From Treponema sp. UBA4326 (GTDB taxonomy: Bacteria > Spirochaetota > Spirochaetia > Treponematales > Treponemataceae): 11,966 nt of DNA. Shown here piece after piece: positions 770 through 11,585 of the stretch. Position 1 is the first letter of the stretch. Each line of letters begins with the position of its first letter. The notes under the pieces are model-generated. The model did not search any database and had not been told where the DNA came from. It saw nothing but the letters and a program-made list of their open reading frames with translations. Location: the NCBI GenBank assembly GCA_002393835.1, contig DGTW01000328.1, positions 1 to 11,966 on the forward strand, in the 5' to 3' direction. Both the position numbers and the translations under genes were made by a program.

Positions 770-2074
770 TTACTTTACTGCCTCAAATACAAAATCGAAG
801 AGGAATACTGCGCCTAAAATCCATGTGACAAGGGGAATTTCATTTGTTTTTTTTGCAACACTTTTGCACAAGATGAATGAAATCATGCCCATCATAATTC
901 CTTTTGAAATCGAATAAGAAAATGGCATTACGGCAATCGTGATAAAAGCCGGAATTCCTTCAGAGAAGTCGCGGAAATCAATTCCGATTATAGAACGCAT
1001 CATCATAAAGCCGACAAATATCAATGCCGGAGCAGTAGCAGCAGGCGGAACCAATGCGAAAACCGGGCTTAAGAAGAGTGCCGAAAAGAAAAGAAGACCT
1101 GTCACCGCTGAAGCCAGGCCTGTTCTTGCACCGGCGGCGATTCCTGTGGCACTTTCGACGAAACTTGTGACGGTTGAAGTTCCAAGACATGCTCCGGCAA
1201 TCGTTCCTGTAGCGTCAGCAAGAAGTGCACGCTTTGCACTGACAATCGTGCCGTTCTCGTCTTTTAAGTTGGCCTGCTCTGCTACACCAACAAAAGTTCC
1301 GATTGTATCAAACAGGTCAGTAAAGAGGAATGTGAAGAACACAATGAAGAATTTGAGCGAAATAACATTTGTCCACTCAAACTTACAAAAATACGGAGCT
1401 GAAGGTTTTGAGAAAGGATAGAATCCTTCTGGAATCGTTGTGATACCAAATGGAATTCCGACTATTGTTGTAATGACAAGTCCCAAAAGAATAGCACCCG
1501 GTATATTTTTCATTGCTAAAATAATTGTGACGATGAGACCAATTATTGCGACAATTGCTGAAGAATGTTCCAAATCAAAATTGACGAATGCGACCGGTGT
1601 TCCTGCCTGATTTGTCAAAATTCCGGCATTTGCAAATCCAATAAGTGCAATAAAAAGGCCGAGTGCGACAGCAATTGCTTTTCGAAGGGTGAGAGGAATA
1701 GAATTGACCAGTGCCTCACGGATTCCAAATATAGAAAGAACTACGAAAAGGACACCTTCAAGCAAGACTGCAGTAAGGGCGAATGCTGGTGTACAACCCA
1801 TGCCATGAACAACGGTGTAAGTGAAGAAAGCGTTGATTCCAAGCCCAGGGGCCAGCGCCACAGGAAGATTTGCGCAAAAAGCCATGACAAGTGTGGCGAT
1901 TGTAGAAGAAAGTGCCGTAGCCGTAAAGGCCGCACCCCATGAAATTCCAGAATCTGAAATGATCTGCGGATTAACCGCAAGAATATAGGACATTGCGAGG
2001 AATGTTGTGATACCGCCGACGATTTCCCGGGTCACAGTAGTTTTGCGCTCAGAAAGCCTGAAGAATTTATCCAT
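770..2074 (-). CDS. NCS2-family purine permease, AzgA/PbuG type
   Basis: A 434-residue polytopic inner-membrane protein with about a dozen hydrophobic segments, the usual length for this family. The N-terminal pattern (REIVGGITTFLAMSYILAVNP), the GLGINAFFTY stretch and the later GTSTVTSFVESATGIAAGARTG stretch are hallmarks of the AzgA/PbuG branch of nucleobase-cation symporters. These take up adenine, guanine or hypoxanthine driven by an ion gradient; which purine this one carries cannot be read from sequence. The start is supported by an AGGAG ribosome-binding site seven bases upstream. It is transcribed alone, divergently from glnA, and has its own terminator. No purine riboswitch is apparent in its short leader. 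Confidence 0.92.
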   Translation of the reverse strand: MDKFFRLSERKTTVTREIVGGITTFLAMSYILAVNPQIISDSGISWGAAFTATALSSTIATLVMAFCANLPVALAPGLGINAFFTYTVVHGMGCTPAFALTAVLLEGVLFVVLSIFGIREALVNSIPLTLRKAIAVALGLFIALIGFANAGILTNQAGTPVAFVNFDLEHSSAIVAIIGLIVTIILAMKNIPGAILLGLVITTIVGIPFGITTIPEGFYPFSKPSAPYFCKFEWTNVISLKFFIVFFTFLFTDLFDTIGTFVGVAEQANLKDENGTIVSAKRALLADATGTIAGACLGTSTVTSFVESATGIAAGARTGLASAVTGLLFFSALFLSPVFALVPPAATAPALIFVGFMMMRSIIGIDFRDFSEGIPAFITIAVMPFSYSISKGIMMGMISFILCKSVAKKTNEIPLVTWILGAVFLFDFVFEAVK

Positions 2075-2099: not shown

Positions 2100-2133
2100 A
2101 TTATAAAATATACTCTTTTTGACAGACTTTCAA
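2100..2133 (-). promoter_or_regulatory. Candidate promoter for the purine permease
   Basis: On the minus strand TTGAAA (2128-2133) is followed 17 bases later by TATTTT, and a perfect TATAAT sits slightly further on (2100-2105). The A/T-rich tract has several overlapping -10 candidates, so the exact start is unclear. Confidence 0.35.
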
Positions 2134-2147
2134 GAATCATAGAGAAT
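2119..2147 (+). promoter_or_regulatory. Candidate upstream promoter of glnA
   Basis: A perfect TTGACA (2119-2124) is followed after 17 bases by GAGAAT (2142-2147). Transcription from here would give a leader of roughly 150 bases that includes a weak extra hexaloop hairpin before the terminator region. Confidence 0.4.
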
Positions 2148-2183: not shown

Positions 2184-2212
2184 TTGCACAATCACCAAAA
2201 AACCGATAAGAT
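2184..2212 (+). promoter_or_regulatory. Likely main promoter of glnA
   Basis: TTGCAC (2184-2189) and TAAGAT (2207-2212) are separated by exactly 17 bases. The predicted start near 2219 lies just before the antiterminator/terminator region and about 83 bases before the glnA start codon. Confidence 0.55.
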
Positions 2213-2222
2213 ATTGTCATTA

Positions 2223-2287
2223 ACGGCAAAGAGGTCGTAGGTTTTTCGCTGTAATTGTCATCCGGCGCAAAGTCTACGGCCTTTTTT
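2223..2287 (+). promoter_or_regulatory. glnA leader attenuator: hexaloop hairpin overlapping an intrinsic terminator
   Basis: Bases 2233-2251 pair with 2263-2281 in an almost continuous 18-bp stem (one mismatch, a few G-T pairs; outer arms GGTCGTAG and CTACGGCC). Six T residues (2282-2287) follow. This is a strong terminator placed before the glnA start codon. Immediately upstream, ACGGC (2223-2227) and GTCGT (2234-2238) form a 5-bp hairpin with the six-base loop AAAGAG, whose A1 and G4 fit the loop rule known for ANTAR proteins. Its 3' arm is part of the terminator's 5' arm, so the two folds exclude each other. An ANTAR protein holding the hexaloop hairpin would prevent termination. The ANTAR gene lies downstream in the same operon. 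The structure is seen in the sequence; its function is inferred. Confidence 0.7.
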
Positions 2288-2301: not shown

Positions 2302-3471
2302 ATGCTTTATACTCAAGAAGAAGTTTTGGACTATGTAAAAGAAGAGGATGTAAAATTCGTCCGTCTTGCCTATTTCGACCTCTCTGGCAAGCAGAAAAAT
2401 GCTACCATTATGGCAAGCGAGCTTCCCCGTGCCTTTGAAAAAGGAATTTCTTTCGACGCTTCAGCAATTCCTGATTTTGAAGAGGCCAATAAATCAGACT
2501 TGTTTTTATACCCGGATCCTTCCACTCTTTCTGTTCTTCCATGGCGGCCAAGTGCTGGAAAAGTAATCCGCATGTTCTGCGACATTAAATATCCCGACGG
2601 CAGCCCCTACAAAAAAGACTGCCGCTATCTTCTTAAAACAGCGGCTGCAAAAATCAAGGCTGAATGTGGCGTTGACCTCCAATTCGGCACGGAATTTGAA
2701 TTCTATCTTTTTAAGCTGGACGAAAATGGCGAGCCAACTAAAATTCCTTTTGACAAGGCTGGCTACATGGACATTGCTCCTGAAGACAAGGGCGAGAATA
2801 TCCGCAGAAACATCTGCTTCACACTGGAACAGATGGGAATCACGCCGGAGTCCAGCCACCATGAGGAGGGGCCAGGTCAGAATGAAGTGGATTTCCATTA
2901 CTCTGATTCCCTTACTTCGGCTGACAATGCCTCTACTTTTAAATGGATTGTCCGCACAAAGGCCGCAGAAAGCGGTCTCTATGCCGATTTTTCGCCAAAA
3001 CCAATTCAAGAAAAGCCGGGCAGCGGAATGCACATCAACATTTCTTGCTCAGACCCTTCAAAAAACGAAAACATCCTTGCCGGAATTCTCAAACACATCG
3101 AAGAAATCACATATTATCTCAATCCAACCGAGAATTCCTACAATCGTCTTGGCGAGGCAAAGGCACCCCACTTTATTTGCTGGGGACGGGAAAATCGCTC
3201 TGCCATAGTCCGCCTTCCAGCCGGTGAAAAAACACGGATTGAAATCAGAACGCCGGATTCAACCTGTAATCCCTACATCGCCTTCACCCTTTTGATTCAT
3301 GCCGCCATCGACGGAATAAAAAGCAATTTAAGGGCAGCCGAGGCGGCCACGGAAAATCTTTTTGATAAGGAAGTCGCAAAAAAAGTAAGCTACAAGACTA
3401 TTCCTGATACTCTGGAAGAGGCTAGGGAAATAGCAGAAAAAAGTGATTTTGTGAAATCGATTTTGGGATAA
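2302..3471 (+). CDS. glnA: Glutamine synthetase, type I, short form
   Basis: Makes glutamine from glutamate, ammonia and ATP in the cytoplasm. It is 389 residues long, against about 440-470 for classical type I enzymes. Visible landmarks are FDASAI (51-56, latch Asp52), the metal-binding TEFEF (130-134) and HHEEGPGQNE (186-195), GSGMHIN (240-246, His244), NRSAIVR (298-304) and RIEIR (312-316), then NPY (323-325). The C-terminus stops right after SDFVKSILG, so the last roughly 50 residues of classical enzymes are missing and no adenylylation tyrosine region is present. The loop that usually reads E-A-P reads GEAKAP (284-289), placing Lys287 where the flap glutamate normally lies; this may be a subfamily trait. 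GGAG precedes the start by a good distance. The leader carries an attenuator, and an ANTAR regulator follows 17 bases downstream. Confidence 0.93.
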   Translation: MLYTQEEVLDYVKEEDVKFVRLAYFDLSGKQKNATIMASELPRAFEKGISFDASAIPDFEEANKSDLFLYPDPSTLSVLPWRPSAGKVIRMFCDIKYPDGSPYKKDCRYLLKTAAAKIKAECGVDLQFGTEFEFYLFKLDENGEPTKIPFDKAGYMDIAPEDKGENIRRNICFTLEQMGITPESSHHEEGPGQNEVDFHYSDSLTSADNASTFKWIVRTKAAESGLYADFSPKPIQEKPGSGMHINISCSDPSKNENILAGILKHIEEITYYLNPTENSYNRLGEAKAPHFICWGRENRSAIVRLPAGEKTRIEIRTPDSTCNPYIAFTLLIHAAIDGIKSNLRAAEAATENLFDKEVAKKVSYKTIPDTLEEAREIAEKSDFVKSILG

Positions 3472-3488: not shown

Positions 3489-4055
3489 GTGACAAGTGAC
3501 ACTTATTCTGTCCTTCTTGTGACAAAAGACACGAAAATTTCTTCTCTTGTGAATATTATGCTCATTCCCCCCATGTTTGAGCTTTCTGTCTGCCAGGATT
3601 TCAATGAGGCACGCCGTAAATGCGACGAGCGAAGCTTCAATATTGTCCTCGTAGATTTTGCTGATGGCGAGGGCACGGATTTTGCCGTTGACATTTCAGA
3701 TTCGTCGAGCACGATTTTGCTTCTGACTCCCCAGGAACATTTTGACCAGATAAGCTACAAGGTCGAAGGCTACGGAGTCCTCACTCTGACGAGGGAATTC
3801 GACCAGTTCTATTTTTACAACATGATAAAAGTGGCCATCGCCGTTCAGTACAAGGTTCAGGTTCTTTCCAGTAAGGCAATTCAGCTTAAAGAAAAAATGG
3901 AAGAAATCAGAATCGTAAACCGTGCGAAAATGCTCTTAATGCAGGTAAAAGACATGACCGAGGCCGAAGCCCACCACTACATCGAAAAAGAAGCAATGGA
4001 TACCGGCGCAAAGAAGGTCAAAGTCTCGGAATTGATTATAAAGACATTAAGTTAA
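3489..4055 (+). CDS. ANTAR-domain antiterminator with degenerate receiver domain
   Basis: 188 residues. Residues 6-119 look like a response-regulator receiver: Asp56 sits in the LVD position, but the acidic pair near residue 12 is reduced to T-K-D and the conserved Lys near residue 100 appears to be lost. Phosphorylation control is therefore doubtful. A coiled-coil-like linker (120-140) leads to an ANTAR domain (about 132-188) with the family features R-x-x-N-R-AK-x-LLM (141-151), M-T-E-A-E-A (156-161) and a final A-M-D-T helix and tail. ANTAR proteins bind paired RNA hairpins and prevent transcription termination. GTG is the chosen start, with GGGAG seven bases upstream. It lies 17 bases after glnA, hence one operon. 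Such a pair resembles glnA-nitR of Clostridium saccharobutylicum. The likely target is the hexaloop hairpin in the glnA leader. Confidence 0.9.
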   Translation: MTSDTYSVLLVTKDTKISSLVNIMLIPPMFELSVCQDFNEARRKCDERSFNIVLVDFADGEGTDFAVDISDSSSTILLLTPQEHFDQISYKVEGYGVLTLTREFDQFYFYNMIKVAIAVQYKVQVLSSKAIQLKEKMEEIRIVNRAKMLLMQVKDMTEAEAHHYIEKEAMDTGAKKVKVSELIIKTLS

Positions 4056-6943: not shown

Positions 6944-8299
6944 CTACTCGTAAATGAATGTTTCTTTTGGACCGTCAATCCTTACATTCTCGAATTTAGC
7001 TCCAGGAGCGTTTCGCACTCGGAAAGATTTTACGCTTACTTCAGGCAGACCGTAGAACATGTCGCTTTCCATTGGTGAGCGGTCAGAAGATTCGTCTGTG
7101 GTGAAGTGGCAGTCCCGGATTTCCAGGTTGTCGATTGGCATTTCTGGAAGACCGACGATGAAGCCGGCACTGGCCTTGCAGTTTTTGCCAGTGCAGCCGA
7201 TGATTTTTACATCGTGGATGCGTGGTGTTTCGCTGGTGACAGGCTGTTTTTCGAGAGAGAAGAGAGGTGACTTTTGGTCTGTGACGCCGCACTTGTAATA
7301 CATGTTCATTGCAATCGGGCAGAGAGTGTCGTCCATTACCAGGTCTTTAAGCTCGATGTCGTAGAGGTCTCCGCCTCGTCCTCGTCGGCTCTTGATTCGA
7401 ATGCCCCGGTCAGTTCCGCTCAAATCGCAGTTCTCTGCGTGAACATGCTGAATTCCGGCTGCAGTCTCAGAGCCGAGAACGATTCCGCCATGGGCAAAGC
7501 GAACTGTGCAGTCTTTAATCGTTACATTTACGGTCGGTTTGTTTACGCGGATTCCGTCCGGGCCTGAGCCAGATTTGAGACAGATTCCGTCGTCACCAAC
7601 GGCGACATAGCAGTTGAGGATTTTGACATTGGTGCATGAGTCAACATCGATTCCGTCAGTGTTCGGTGCTGAGTACGGATTTTCGATTTTGAGGTTCTGC
7701 AAAGTGAGGTCGTCCACATAAAGTGGATGAACGGTCCAGAAAGGAGAATTCTTGATTGAAACTCCTTCAAGGACAACTCCCTGACAGTTGATGAATTCAA
7801 TAAGACTGGGGCGGAGAAACTGTGTTTCACGGCCGCCGCCGCCGCCAGCCTGATTTTCATAGCCAGGGTTCATTTTTGCGAGGGCAAGCTCATAGGGTTC
7901 TACAGGGCGGGTCTGGCCAGCTTCTTTTTTGGCTTTTTTTAGCTCCCACCAGGCATTTCCGTTTCCGTTAATTGTGCCCCGGCCCGTGATTTTTACATTT
8001 TTTGCGTCTGCCGAGCGGATGAGGGCGTGCATTGCATAGCACTCAACACCTTCCCAGCGAGTGAATGCCGGAGGATAGGCGTTTGGATCCGTAACGAAAG
8101 AAAGCTCTGCTCCTTCCTTAAGTTCCAAAGTTGAATCGCTGATTAAATCGATTGGGCCTGTGAGCCAGGTTCCTTCTTCAACGATTAATTTTCCGCCGCC
8201 ATTTTTTGCGAGCTCTTCAAAAGCGGCCTTAAATGAATTGGTATTGTCAAAAACACCGTCGTTCTTGCCACCAAAGTCCTTGATATTAATCTCTGTCAT
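6944..8299 (-). CDS. GH28 polygalacturonase, predicted cytoplasmic
   Basis: 451 residues forming a right-handed beta-helix family enzyme that hydrolyses alpha-1,4 galacturonan. Active-site landmarks are NTDGID (213-218, Asp215), GDD (235-237, Asp236 and Asp237), AHGG (269-272, His270) and RIK (301-303). All match the catalytic set of the family. There is no signal peptide: the protein starts [15 protein letters not shown], directly at the beta-helix cap. Together with its length this resembles intracellular exo-acting galacturonases such as the Thermotoga enzyme rather than secreted endo-enzymes. A run of five glycines (152-156) lies in a loop. GAGGA precedes the start. The gene follows a pectin methylesterase on the same strand by 97 bases and has its own candidate promoter and a strong terminator. 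Confidence 0.92.
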
Positions 8300-8334
8300 A
8301 GCAAATCCTCATATTCACTTTTTTAGATTCTACT

Positions 8335-8362
8335 ATTATATACACTATTTCCGCCTTGAAAA
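8335..8362 (-). promoter_or_regulatory. Candidate promoter of the polygalacturonase gene
   Basis: On the minus strand TTTTCA (8357-8362) and a perfect TATAAT (8335-8340) are 16 bases apart, ending about 35 bases before the GH28 start codon. Confidence 0.5.
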
Positions 8363-8396
8363 GACAAGATTTTGATATGATTTTGCATTTTTGCGA

Positions 8397-9356
8397 TTAA
8401 AAGGAGGCGAGCAGTTTTTCGGCTTCTTCTTTCGTCATGGTGTAGCCGTGCTTTTCCTGCAATTTTGAGTCATATTCAGAAAGGCTTCCGTCTTCGTGAA
8501 GAATTTTCGTGCCATATTCCCGCCAGCCGGTCATAGCGCTTCCCTTTTCTGGATAAACAGCCCTCGTTCCGTCCTCGTCAGTCCAAAGGGCGGTGTCGTA
8601 CAAATCAGAAATTCGGCAGTTTATCAGGGCAATGGAATCCCAGCGGTCAAGGCTGTCTGGCTTTCCAGTTCCTTGTGAGCGTCCAATGAAGATTTGGGCA
8701 TTTTTTCCCCTGTTTTCGGCCGTAAAGTCGCAGTCGATGAAAACAAAGCCTGGTTTTGAGTTCCATGCCCGGCTCTGCAAAACATAGGCAGGCCTGTCTG
8801 AGCCACGGTTGTCGCTTCTGGTGTGGAGGGTGCATTTTTCAAAAACTGAATAATTGCAGTAGCCCCATATATAATCCACATCACCAGTGACATAGCATTT
8901 TTTGAAGTGAGAGATTCCTTTTACATGAATTGTGTCCTGACGGCTTATGAAAGACATTCCCTCGCAAAAAAGTTTTCCCGTCTGGCAGTGAAAGCAGATT
9001 GCCTCCGCCTGATTTCCAAGTGATGCGTCATCACAAGTTTTTACATGTGTGTTTTCGATTGTAAAATTTTTGAGGGTTACGGAAGTGCATTTTTCGCCAA
9101 AAGTGAGCACGGCACGGTTTTCAGTATCTTTGTGGAAGGCCTCACAATTTTCGCCGCGCAAGGCACATTTAGAGGCTTCCCCGGAAACGCTTTCGATTAC
9201 AAGTGGATTTGGCAGATTGTAAAAAATCCGCTCATGTTCCAGCCCCTTATGCTCACCGTCTTCAAGAAAAATATGAATCGGCTCACTAGATGGAGAAATT
9301 TTTGAAAAAATGTCTGCCAAAGACTGGCTGGCTTTGATTGTGTAATTCATAGCCAT
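8397..9356 (-). CDS. CE8 pectin methylesterase, predicted cytoplasmic
   Basis: 319 residues. Removes methyl esters from galacturonan, giving methanol and free carboxylates. The family motifs are present: QAEA (116-119), RQDT (139-142, Asp141), GDVDYIWG (158-165, Asp161) and IGR (224-226, Arg226); the usual Trp of LGRPW is replaced, the stretch reading IGRSQGTG. The catalytic pair Asp141/Asp161 and Arg226 are intact. No signal peptide is seen, unlike secreted family members. Two in-frame ATGs lie at 9354-9356 and 9348-9350; only a weak AGTGG precedes them, so the start could be either. It lies just upstream of the polygalacturonase on the same strand, which fits a pathway where esters are removed before hydrolysis. 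Confidence 0.9.
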   Translation of the reverse strand: MAMNYTIKASQSLADIFSKISPSSEPIHIFLEDGEHKGLEHERIFYNLPNPLVIESVSGEASKCALRGENCEAFHKDTENRAVLTFGEKCTSVTLKNFTIENTHVKTCDDASLGNQAEAICFHCQTGKLFCEGMSFISRQDTIHVKGISHFKKCYVTGDVDYIWGYCNYSVFEKCTLHTRSDNRGSDRPAYVLQSRAWNSKPGFVFIDCDFTAENRGKNAQIFIGRSQGTGKPDSLDRWDSIALINCRISDLYDTALWTDEDGTRAVYPEKGSAMTGWREYGTKILHEDGSLSEYDSKLQEKHGYTMTKEEAEKLLASF

Positions 9357-9436: not shown

Positions 9437-10504
9437 CTACTTGCCCATTAAAAGTTTGCTTTCTTCAAAAAGACTCTTTGCGTTTCGCTCGGCACGCTCA
9501 CGATTCTTCATTGAAATCATAAAGAAATCTGCCATAAGTTCCTCGCTGTAGTGCTTTTGAATAAGCTCGGCCCGGCACAAAAACCTTAACGCAACAGTAG
9601 AAGAAAGAATATCCAGGTCTGCCACCGCAAGGCGTTTTGAAATCATCTGCAGGGCAAGGGAATAATTGTCGCTCAGCATTTTCTGCAAGTCGCCGATTGT
9701 AGTCTTTTTGAGCCATTCAAGCTGTTCAAGATAATTTTCCGGGCTTTCCTGTGTAATGTCGGCCTCACAGATATTGGAAATTGCCGCCAGAAATGACTGC
9801 ATGTTCTTGCTGTTGAACATGTATTCTTCGAGCGAGACAGAATCAATCGGAACATCGTTTGCCATATCTTTGATTATTTTTTGGTGAACGTCCTTTGTGT
9901 ATTCAAAAACCCTGTTCCTGATATTCACAAAATGCTCGTCTGCAATTTCAAGAAGACCCGCAAGCCGGTAAAATTCCCGACGGACGGCATTTGGAACGCC
10001 ATATTTGGTTTTGTAGCCCAGGTCATGCTCCATTACAGCCCAGATATGCTGAATGAGAGAGCACATCTGAACCTCAAAGCGTTTGTTTTTTAGCTCCGCC
10101 GGATAATCGCCGTCCTGTTTGAGAGAGCAGATATAGTGAAGGGAAAGATAGCCGAAAGCGTTTACATTGAGGTACTTGCGCTTGTCGATTGAAGATTCCC
10201 AGTCCACGGTGAAGTTTTCCTCGATTTTAGCGGCCAGCTTATCGACATCATCAGAGAAGAAACATACAACCCTGGCTCCCAGAATATCCGTGATGTCGGA
10301 AAGTGAGGAGTATTTGTCGCTTTTTCGCTCTAGCTTACCGGCAAGGCTTTTTTCTTCTTTAATTCGATGATTTATCGCATAAATCCGGATGTTGCACTTG
10401 TCGGCGATGCTTTGCAGAATGGAAACAACCTCGCTTTCAAGCCGCTCAAAGTCTGGCTTTTGCTCGCGGTATTCCTCCATTATTATCTTGTTTTTTTCGT
10501 TCAT
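9437..10504 (-). CDS. RelA/SpoT-domain (p)ppGpp synthetase-like protein
   Basis: 355 residues from the chosen ATG at 10502-10504; a longer frame starting at 10567 only overlaps the upstream gene and its extra residues look meaningless. Residues 40-165 form a nucleotidyltransferase domain of the RelA/SpoT synthetase type. Visible are the basic R-I-K...K stretch (47-57), D-I-L-G-A-R (73-78), F-G-Y-L-S-L-H-Y (117-124) and F-E-V-Q (143-146) with H160 and Y164-K165. Asp73, Glu144 and the G-loop Tyr119 are kept, so activity is plausible. The usual P-K-x-N-G-Y-R-S motif is replaced by an N-x-N-A-F-G-Y-L-S form. No HD hydrolase, TGS or ACT domain is present; the C-terminal 190 residues are helical and not recognised. 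The gene starts 13 bases after the kinase-like gene. Confidence 0.82.
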   Translation of the reverse strand: MNEKNKIIMEEYREQKPDFERLESEVVSILQSIADKCNIRIYAINHRIKEEKSLAGKLERKSDKYSSLSDITDILGARVVCFFSDDVDKLAAKIEENFTVDWESSIDKRKYLNVNAFGYLSLHYICSLKQDGDYPAELKNKRFEVQMCSLIQHIWAVMEHDLGYKTKYGVPNAVRREFYRLAGLLEIADEHFVNIRNRVFEYTKDVHQKIIKDMANDVPIDSVSLEEYMFNSKNMQSFLAAISNICEADITQESPENYLEQLEWLKKTTIGDLQKMLSDNYSLALQMISKRLAVADLDILSSTVALRFLCRAELIQKHYSEELMADFFMISMKNRERAERNAKSLFEESKLLMGK

Positions 10505-10517
10505 GCCTTGGTTTGAC

Positions 10518-11162
10518 CTATTGATTAAGTTTGGCCAGTTCGACAATCCACTTTGCCGTTGCTTCAAGTCCGGCCGAAGAGCTGTTTATCATCATGTCGT
10601 AGTTCTTGCGGTCGCCCCAGATATTCTCCGTGAAGGTGTTGTAGTGGTTTGCACGTCGTTTGTCGATTTGAATAATCGTTTTTTTGGCACAGGATTCTGT
10701 TTCTTTGTAGATTTCCTCGATTCGCTTGACCTTTGCCTCGATATCAGCATAGATGAAGACATTGAGAAGGTCCTTGTTGTCTATCTGGTTAGAAGTTGAA
10801 AGAATGTAGTCAGCGCAGCGGCCTACGATGACGCAAGGCTCTTTTGTGAGATCCAGGATGATTTTGCGTTCAGCATTGAAAATCTGGTCTGCCAGGGGAA
10901 GATTAGTCTGCCCAAGTGGCTGGCCGACAGCGCTGGCACTTGTTCCGGCATAGCTTGTTCCAAGAAGAAGGTTGTAAAGCCAGCCTGAAGAAAGGTTCTG
11001 CTCGGTTTTTTTGATGAATTCCGCAGAAAGCCCGCTTTCTTTTGCCGCCATGTCGATTATTTCACGGTCATAGAAAGCGTAGCCCAGCTGCTCTGCGACC
11101 ATTTTGCCAATTAAACGGCCGCCTGATCCATATTCACGACTGATTGTTATATATTTTTTCAT
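10518..11162 (-). CDS. Cytidylate-kinase-like P-loop protein
   Basis: 214 residues from the ATG at 11160-11162, chosen because AGGAG lies eight bases upstream and the sequence begins at the expected first strand (MKKYITISREYGSGG). The P-loop is GSGGRLIGK (12-20), followed by YDREII (31-36), GRCADYI (114-120) and a basic lid (DKRRANHYNTFT, 167-178). This matches the cytidylate-kinase-like family, related to CMP kinase but with unclear substrate. True CMP kinase would be longer in the NMP-binding region, so the substrate is left open. It is first in an apparent two-gene unit with the RelA/SpoT-domain protein, and divergent from the FliG-like gene. Confidence 0.82.
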   Translation of the reverse strand: MKKYITISREYGSGGRLIGKMVAEQLGYAFYDREIIDMAAKESGLSAEFIKKTEQNLSSGWLYNLLLGTSYAGTSASAVGQPLGQTNLPLADQIFNAERKIILDLTKEPCVIVGRCADYILSTSNQIDNKDLLNVFIYADIEAKVKRIEEIYKETESCAKKTIIQIDKRRANHYNTFTENIWGDRKNYDMMINSSSAGLEATAKWIVELAKLNQ

Positions 11163-11203
11163 TTTTTGCTCCTTTTCGACTCTGTAGAATTTTCTCCACA
11201 AGT

Positions 11204-11237: not shown

Positions 11238-11585
11238 ATGACAGGTTACGAAAAAATAGCAATCCTTTTGACGGAACTTGGCTCAGAAGCAAGTGAAAAA
11301 ATTCTTTCAATTCTCAATCTTTCTCCCGCCCAAATGAACAAAATCAGCAGGAATATTCTTTCCCTCGGTGGCTACAACCCAAAGAATCTCCTCCATGTTC
11401 AGCGCGAAACGGCTGTCCTCGAAGAAGTCAAAAAATTCGGCGAGTTGCGAGGAATTTACCGTGAAGTCGCTCCTCAAGAGGGCGGTTTTCTTATGGTAGA
11501 TAACAATCTCGAATCCCTCAAAAAAGAAATTCCCAAAAGCCCGGAAGATGTGGCCAATGTGCTCCGGGGCTGGCTCGACAGCTGA
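11238..11585 (+). CDS. Stand-alone FliG N-terminal-domain-like protein
   Basis: 115 residues. Residues 1-45 (MTGYEKIAILLTELG, then SEKILSILNLS and MNKISRNILSLG) closely follow the first helices of FliG, the flagellar rotor protein whose N-domain binds the MS-ring protein FliF. The FliG middle domain with its EHPQ motif and the charged C-terminal domain that meets the stator are absent, and the frame closes normally after an acidic tail ending in WLDS, so this is not an obvious truncation. It may be a partner or modulator of the rotor, or a FliG-N fold reused elsewhere. A GGGGG-A ribosome-binding site lies six bases before the ATG. Transcribed divergently from the kinase-like gene. Confidence 0.7.
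   Translation: MTGYEKIAILLTELGSEASEKILSILNLSPAQMNKISRNILSLGGYNPKNLLHVQRETAVLEEVKKFGELRGIYREVAPQEGGFLMVDNNLESLKKEIPKSPEDVANVLRGWLDS

Follow-up and report, generated by a model that had tools for sequence, protein, structure and literature searches.

The glnA locus and its leader

The window (the whole 11,966-nt stretch analysed, contig DGTW01000328.1 of Treponema sp. UBA4326) carries glnA and, directly after it, the gene of an ANTAR-domain protein (Table 1). Ahead of glnA lies a leader with a predicted promoter, a short hairpin and a terminator, and a permease gene adjoins this leader on its other side. The window's glutamine synthetase is short, and its best NCBIfam match is TIGR00653 (GlnA) at 344.8 bits, under the cut-off of 429.15.

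Table 1. Features of the window, with positions counted from its first base.
Feature	Position	Strand	Remarks
Permease gene	770-2074	-	direction opposite to glnA
Second promoter-like site	2119-2147		5' of the predicted promoter
Predicted -35 box, TTGCAC	2184-2189	+	17-nt spacer to the -10 box
Predicted -10 box, TAAGAT	2207-2212	+	start site expected near 2219
GAT-ATTGTC-ATT, earlier P1 candidate	2210-2221	+	rejected: lies on the -10 box, 3 bp, unconserved
Putative ANTAR-type antiterminator hairpin	2223-2238	+	ACGGC-AAAGAG-GTCGT; 5-bp stem; covariation in 21 leaders
Hexaloop AAAGAG	2228-2233	+	A1 = 2228, G4 = 2231
Terminator stem-loop	2233-2281	+	18 bp; exclusive with the hairpin
ANTGTC word	2254-2259
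T6 tract of the terminator	2282-2287	+
glnA, type I-like glutamine synthetase	2302-3471	+	389 aa; PF00120 and PF03951
ANTAR protein gene, proposed antiterminator	3489-4055	+	PF03861; degenerate receiver, long helix, ANTAR domain
Polygalacturonase-family (GH28) and pectinesterase genes, adjacent	6944-9356	-	pectin breakdown
RelA_SpoT-domain protein gene beside a cytidylate kinase-like gene	9437-11201	-	overlap at 10518-10567 with the listed ORF starts
Gene of a protein with FliG N-terminal domain	11238-11585	+	115 aa

Both structures that the first-pass annotation described in the leader are present. The terminator stem before the T6 tract is formed by pairing of 2233-2245 with 2269-2281 (13 bp) and of 2247-2251 with 2263-2267 (5 bp), with one mismatch between; the segment 2219-2288 folds at an MFE of -26.3 kcal/mol (z = -5.07), and none of 200 shuffled sequences was equally stable. 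The 5-bp hairpin carries A and G at positions 1 and 4 of its hexaloop (A1/G4), and its 3' arm (2234-2238) and loop base 6 (2233) are included in the 5' arm of the terminator, so that hairpin and terminator are mutually exclusive. The terminator is located between the predicted promoter and glnA, and because the permease gene is oppositely oriented it is not the end of a neighbouring upstream gene on the same strand. Taken alone, the -35 box is weak, with an equal or better score in 53 of 200 shuffles. An Rfam scan of the whole window returned no family at its gathering score; at E up to 10 the segment 2100-2320 gave four matches, each far under its gathering score.

The protein encoded after glnA matches PF03861 over residues 132-184 (52.5 bits, cut-off 27.3), the sole such match in the window's genome (74% complete), which confirms the earlier call of an ANTAR gene as second gene of the glnA operon. 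The Pfam receiver domain was not matched in this protein; its predicted structure (pLDDT 88.2, pTM 0.65) has a receiver-like domain, a long helix and the ANTAR helices. Among the 50 chains listed in a fold comparison, the closest by E-value are Rv1626, EutV and AmiR, and the highest TM-score, 0.76, belongs to RNA-bound EutV (6ww6_B). The phosphorylation residues are partly lost: with places assigned by eye across 60 homologues, D56 is present in 60/60, T12/K13 stand at the place of the acidic pair, and T80 and the Lys place are variable, and the full set (acidic pair, Asp, Thr/Ser, Lys) was not found in the protein. Of the RNA contacts given in the EutV structure paper (PMC8934654), K149, E160 and M172 are kept in 60/60 proteins, K143 and K147 are R or K in 60/60, and R177 is K or R in 60/60. 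Y164 is H in 60/60, R142 is I in 59/60, R168 is E in 60/60, N173 is D in 48/60, and R175 occurs in 0/60, its place being taken by G, C or S.

Conservation of the leader among relatives

A search of 59 genomes gave relatives of the ANTAR protein in 32, and one of 200 genomes of the genus gave them in 173, each figure including the window's own genome; of 49 named contigs that also carry a relative, 47 bear the title Treponema or that of another spirochaete. PF03861 itself is rare in the phylum (12/198 genomes, 9 of these in this genus). At all 30 loci drawn from the 59-genome search, glnA lies directly upstream of the ANTAR gene. The hairpin-terminator arrangement is present in 21 distinct glnA leaders from 77 loci (L001-L077, some genomes repeated); 19 were collected by script, less the repeats L031, L038 and L044, and L010, L026, L053, L057 and L063 were added by eye, L067 being excluded as a repeat of L010. 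The L026 leader comes from a genome with a distant ANTAR type. At many other loci glnA stands behind a pyrG-, carB- or glmS-like coding sequence (names assigned by eye), without such a leader of its own.

A1, G4 and the closing C-G pair are invariant in 21/21 glnA leaders. The stem occurs as CGGC/GTCG, CGAC/GTCG, TGAC/GTCG, GAAC/GTTC, GAGC/GTTC, GGGC/GCTC and AGGC/GCCT, and its core is paired in 84 of 84 cells of the 21 leaders, compared with a mean of 81.6% after shuffling and no more than 49% in slid versions; the covariation score is 0.707 vs 0.342, with 0 of 500 shuffles as high. Because the 5' arm lies outside the terminator, its match to the 3' arm is evidence for the hairpin in its own right. 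Conservation of hexaloop and stem in relatives, the lack of which had been set beforehand as one of two refuting outcomes, is what the 21 leaders display, and the stem covaries among them. As a dual-hairpin outgroup control we considered Longibaculum muris (L079), where an ANTAR gene follows glnA; its glnA leader (near 2670-2755) has a terminator after a promoter-like site, and since no A1/G4 hairpin was seen in it by eye, it was unusable for this purpose.

One hairpin or two

Known ANTAR targets have two hairpins (P1 and P2). The first-pass annotation had offered GAT-ATTGTC-ATT as the upstream partner, and had reasoned that a main start near 2219 would leave a single hairpin. A -35/-10 pair with 17-18 nt spacing is present in 20 of the 21 glnA leaders, with the -10 box ending 8-13 nt before the four-pair stem core (shuffled leaders have a -10 at 6-13 nt in 17%), which leaves no room for P1 in these 20 and is consistent with the predicted start near 2219. 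The exception is L026, where the -10 box ends 27 nt before the core. Among the 158 elements described below, a -10 lies at 6-15 nt in 101 (shuffled 21%) and, by a looser rule, at 6-16 nt in 137 (shuffled 23%). The stricter rule required a final T and found only 3/22 carA and 0/7 glnN sites; the looser one found 21/22 and 6/7, but 1/4 gltD and 2/4 purF sites, where 4 of each had been found before. If transcription is assumed to start about 7 nt past the -10 box, the RNA of the 101 elements whose -10 lies at 6-15 nt would have a median of 3 nt ahead of the core, and never more than 8.

P1-like hairpins upstream are near the level of shuffled sequence, and we reject a P1 in this position. A1/G4 hexaloop hairpins of at least 3 bp within 60 nt upstream number 2 in the 21 leaders, vs 2.5 in shuffled ones, and one of the two is GAT-ATTGTC-ATT. 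Within 50 nt upstream of the 158 elements there are 19, vs 16.1 +- 3.6 shuffled; the first set of 60 elements, scanned over 60 nt, was slightly up (11 vs 7.7 +- 2.7). Demanding C-G closure leaves 2/158 (0.8 in shuffled sequence), and each of the two is the leading member of a tandem pair. The scan detected the first members of the tandem pairs L157 and L162 and is therefore able to see such hairpins, its sensitivity being gauged from these two. For GAT-ATTGTC-ATT, the claim of a weak hairpin stands and that of a P1 role does not: it overlaps the -10 box, is without the C-G closing pair, and recurs elsewhere only in the near-identical G212/L031 leader. With no conserved partner hairpin in relatives, and with the -10 spacing repeated in 20/21 leaders, the single-hairpin reading is supported.

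A genus-wide set of elements

Covariance models built from two glnA leader types gave matches at E <= 1 in 133/196 and 113/196 genomes of the genus, with up to 12 in one genome (antisense matches included). We read 162 sites, 158 of them distinct, from 77 genomes. This set is a selection: 60 loci from the two model searches and two weak matches in the window's genome (G000), 22 of the 34 sites of a further list (antisense, already-taken and locus-less sites left out), and 78 of 79 further sense matches picked from the upper part of the lists, the one dropped being a 191-base contig-end stretch. Antisense matches to the same palindromic terminators were excluded. The elements stand before asnB (32), gltB (27), pyrG (23), carA (22), glnA (21), glnN (7), dapF (7), gltD (4), purF (4), gdhA (2), metY (1) and a LuxR-type gene (1), with 7 unassigned; gene families were checked on one or two representatives each, and the rest were assigned by tblastn. 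Among the unassigned are nadE (L246) and a gene with a CxxCxxCC domain (L190).

A1, G4 and the C-G closing pair are found in 158/158 elements, a constancy that is partly the result of selection because the hexaloop is part of the covariance models; all four core pairs are present in 147 and three in 11. As a model-independent test we used 21 extra terminators near gltB and glnN elements, 10 without and 11 with an overlapping hexaloop hairpin. Ten of these 11 hairpins (at least 4 bp) are A1/G4, where the chance for two fixed bases is about 1 in 16.

The window's genome has a further element before glnN at a contig edge and another before a small LuxR-type gene, both scoring weakly (E 0.003 and 0.002, respectively). 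The latter (L142, G000:C314) precedes a 108-aa LuxR-type HTH gene, a possible secondary regulator. Outside the genus, matches at E <= 0.01 occur in 2/81 genomes of the order. A scan of the 158 elements, with A1/G4 required, found 16 tandem hairpin-terminators 41-93 nt apart (11 before gltB, 4 before glnN, 1 unassigned). The pairs before glnN, a type III glutamine synthetase, are at L143 (G000:C323), L162, L171 and L242; those before gltB are at L163 and others, each hairpin being A1/G4 with its own terminator. Since their spacing is far over the 5-12 nt reported for the P1-P2 linker of eut targets (PMC3369931), they look like serial single switches, not P1-P2 pairs.

Association with the ANTAR protein

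A strong element (E <= 1e-8) is present in 89/104 genomes with a close ANTAR homologue (E <= 1e-40) and in 13/96 others, where 196 searched genomes were set against 200 and up to 4 unsearched ones counted as lacking the element (Fisher p = 3.7e-26, genomes counted as independent of descent). The 15/104 genomes with a close homologue and no strong element include up to 4 of those unsearched. Among the 13 others with the element, 8 have a distant ANTAR protein only, some of them in nearly complete genomes; the remaining 5 have no match to this ANTAR protein and are 65-82% complete. This second, distant ANTAR type (L023-L030, 31-37% identical) also lies right after glnA, and some of its loci follow a glmS-like coding sequence (by eye); genomes with the second type only have a strong element in 8/69.

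Interpretation and alternatives

We consider it likely that the glnA leader is an ANTAR-controlled transcription attenuator using one hexaloop hairpin, and that the same element serves glutamine and glutamate metabolism genus-wide. This reading draws on the hairpin, the terminator, their overlap, the covariation, the promoter-like spacing, the lack of P1, the regulon and the co-occurrence, all of which can be read from the sequences themselves. The steps that we infer, from start site through ANTAR protein binding and antitermination to the signal, would run as follows. Transcription would start a few bases 5' of the hairpin, and by default the leader would fold into the terminator and RNA polymerase would stop before glnA. 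An active ANTAR protein would hold the A1/G4 hairpin; with the opening bases of the terminator 5' arm tied up in this hairpin, the polymerase would continue into glnA and also into the ANTAR gene. The element likewise precedes asnB, gltB, gltD, pyrG, carA, purF, glnN and gdhA, which supply or consume glutamine and glutamate, as well as dapF, so that a single ANTAR protein probably controls the regulon according to nitrogen state.

Against this explanation stand the replacement of the EutV contacts R142, R168 and R175, the 15/104 genomes that have a close homologue and no strong element, the 13/96 others that do have one, and the slightly raised number of P1-like hairpins in the first set of 60 elements. 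Published systems also lean on the second hairpin: in the reports cited, deletion of P1 abolished induction of Enterococcus faecalis eutP (PMC3369931), NasR bound P2 alone only at about 12 uM (PMC7496416), and the EutV dimer must contact each of two hexaloops individually, though binding one at a time (Walshe 2022, PMC8934654). Given the eutP and NasR results, a hairpin standing alone may depend on a partner or on a stronger protein. EutV residues K143 and K147 are described as contacting the hexaloop from the other chain (PMC8934654), and by analogy both chains gripping one hexaloop would be a possible way for a lone hairpin to suffice. An extension of the single-hexaloop regulon that we regard as rather improbable is that the co-transcribed glutamine synthetase would be the sensor, holding or freeing the ANTAR protein via its degenerate receiver as in AmiC-AmiR.

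The attenuator could be real and yet answer to some other factor, be it another RNA-binding protein, a leader peptide or an RNA that binds a metabolite, with the ANTAR gene a mere neighbour. Elements do occur in the 13/96 genomes without this ANTAR type; however, the invariant bases are those common to ANTAR targets (A1, G4 and the closing pair, as described in PMC3369931 and PMC7496416), element and ANTAR homologue co-occur strongly, no good Rfam match was found in the window, and conservation beyond the terminator is limited to a short stem-loop. We therefore hold this to be unlikely. Still less probable is an ordinary dual-hairpin target whose P1 would come from transcripts starting further upstream, in the window GAT-ATTGTC-ATT. 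The second promoter-like site and the two hairpins of the published target motif (PMC3369931) would suit it, but the candidate P1 overlaps the near -10 box and recurs only in near-identical leaders, and P1-like hairpins stay at the shuffled level in both the 21 leaders and the 158 elements.

A target in reversed order, with its second hexaloop at the terminator apex, seems to us very improbable. An ANTGTC word lies at mid-element, the terminator apex, in 55/158 elements (shuffled 3.5), mostly those of pyrG, carA and glnA, and in L092 the AUUGUC could be closed by 5 bp (by eye). Yet A1/G4 hexaloop hairpins in the apex region are at the shuffled level (25 vs 22.7 +- 5.4), none of the 27 gltB, 7 dapF, 7 glnN, 4 purF and 4 gltD elements contains the word, and the window's own apex cannot close a hexaloop (by eye). 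With shuffled-level hairpins and the word missing from several element classes, we reject an apex hexaloop as a general feature.

Comparison with known systems

The published rule for ANTAR antitermination is two hexaloops; genus-wide single-hairpin targets would show that the recruitment hairpin is dispensable, and would be material for testing why P1 is needed elsewhere. We predict a target class that lies outside the definition used in dual-hairpin searches, and propose a nitrogen-control system of gut and rumen treponemes. In the open-licence literature on ANTAR (single hairpin, Treponema, hexaloop, glutamine genes, nitrogen) we found no such regulon reported. The glnA-ANTAR neighbourhood presumably has a counterpart in Clostridium acetobutylicum, where we take nitR to adjoin glnA. 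The nitR product is described as a putative antiterminator likewise tied to glutamine synthetase, in another phylum (PMC4676874).

The closest likeness is to EutV and eutP of Enterococcus faecalis as presented in Ramesh 2012 (PMC3369931) and Walshe 2022 (PMC8934654), with an A1/G4 hexaloop on a short stem with a conserved closing pair, a hairpin 3' arm within an intrinsic terminator, a receiver-ANTAR protein and several targets per genome; the predicted fold of the Treponema protein, moreover, matches RNA-bound EutV. Unlike eutP, the Treponema element is without P1, its start being predicted just before the only hairpin, and unlike EutV, the Treponema protein has a degenerate receiver, several changed RNA contacts and a regulon of glutamine and glutamate genes. 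NasR/nasF (PMC7496416) and AmiR/amiE (PMC3369931), according to the sections cited, share the loop rule and the terminator overlap, and AmiR also has a degenerate receiver (PMC8934654); in contrast, the nasF and amiE targets are dual hairpins, and NasR has a NIT domain. Ramesh 2012 lists dual-hairpin matches before synthase genes for glutamate, glutamine and arginine (PMC3369931), the same gene theme as that of the Treponema elements; with its target defined as two hairpins, that search was not aimed at single-hairpin sites. Judged from sequence, the Treponema element would work like an ANTAR antiterminator, yet a definition that calls for two hairpins does not admit it as a standard member of that class.
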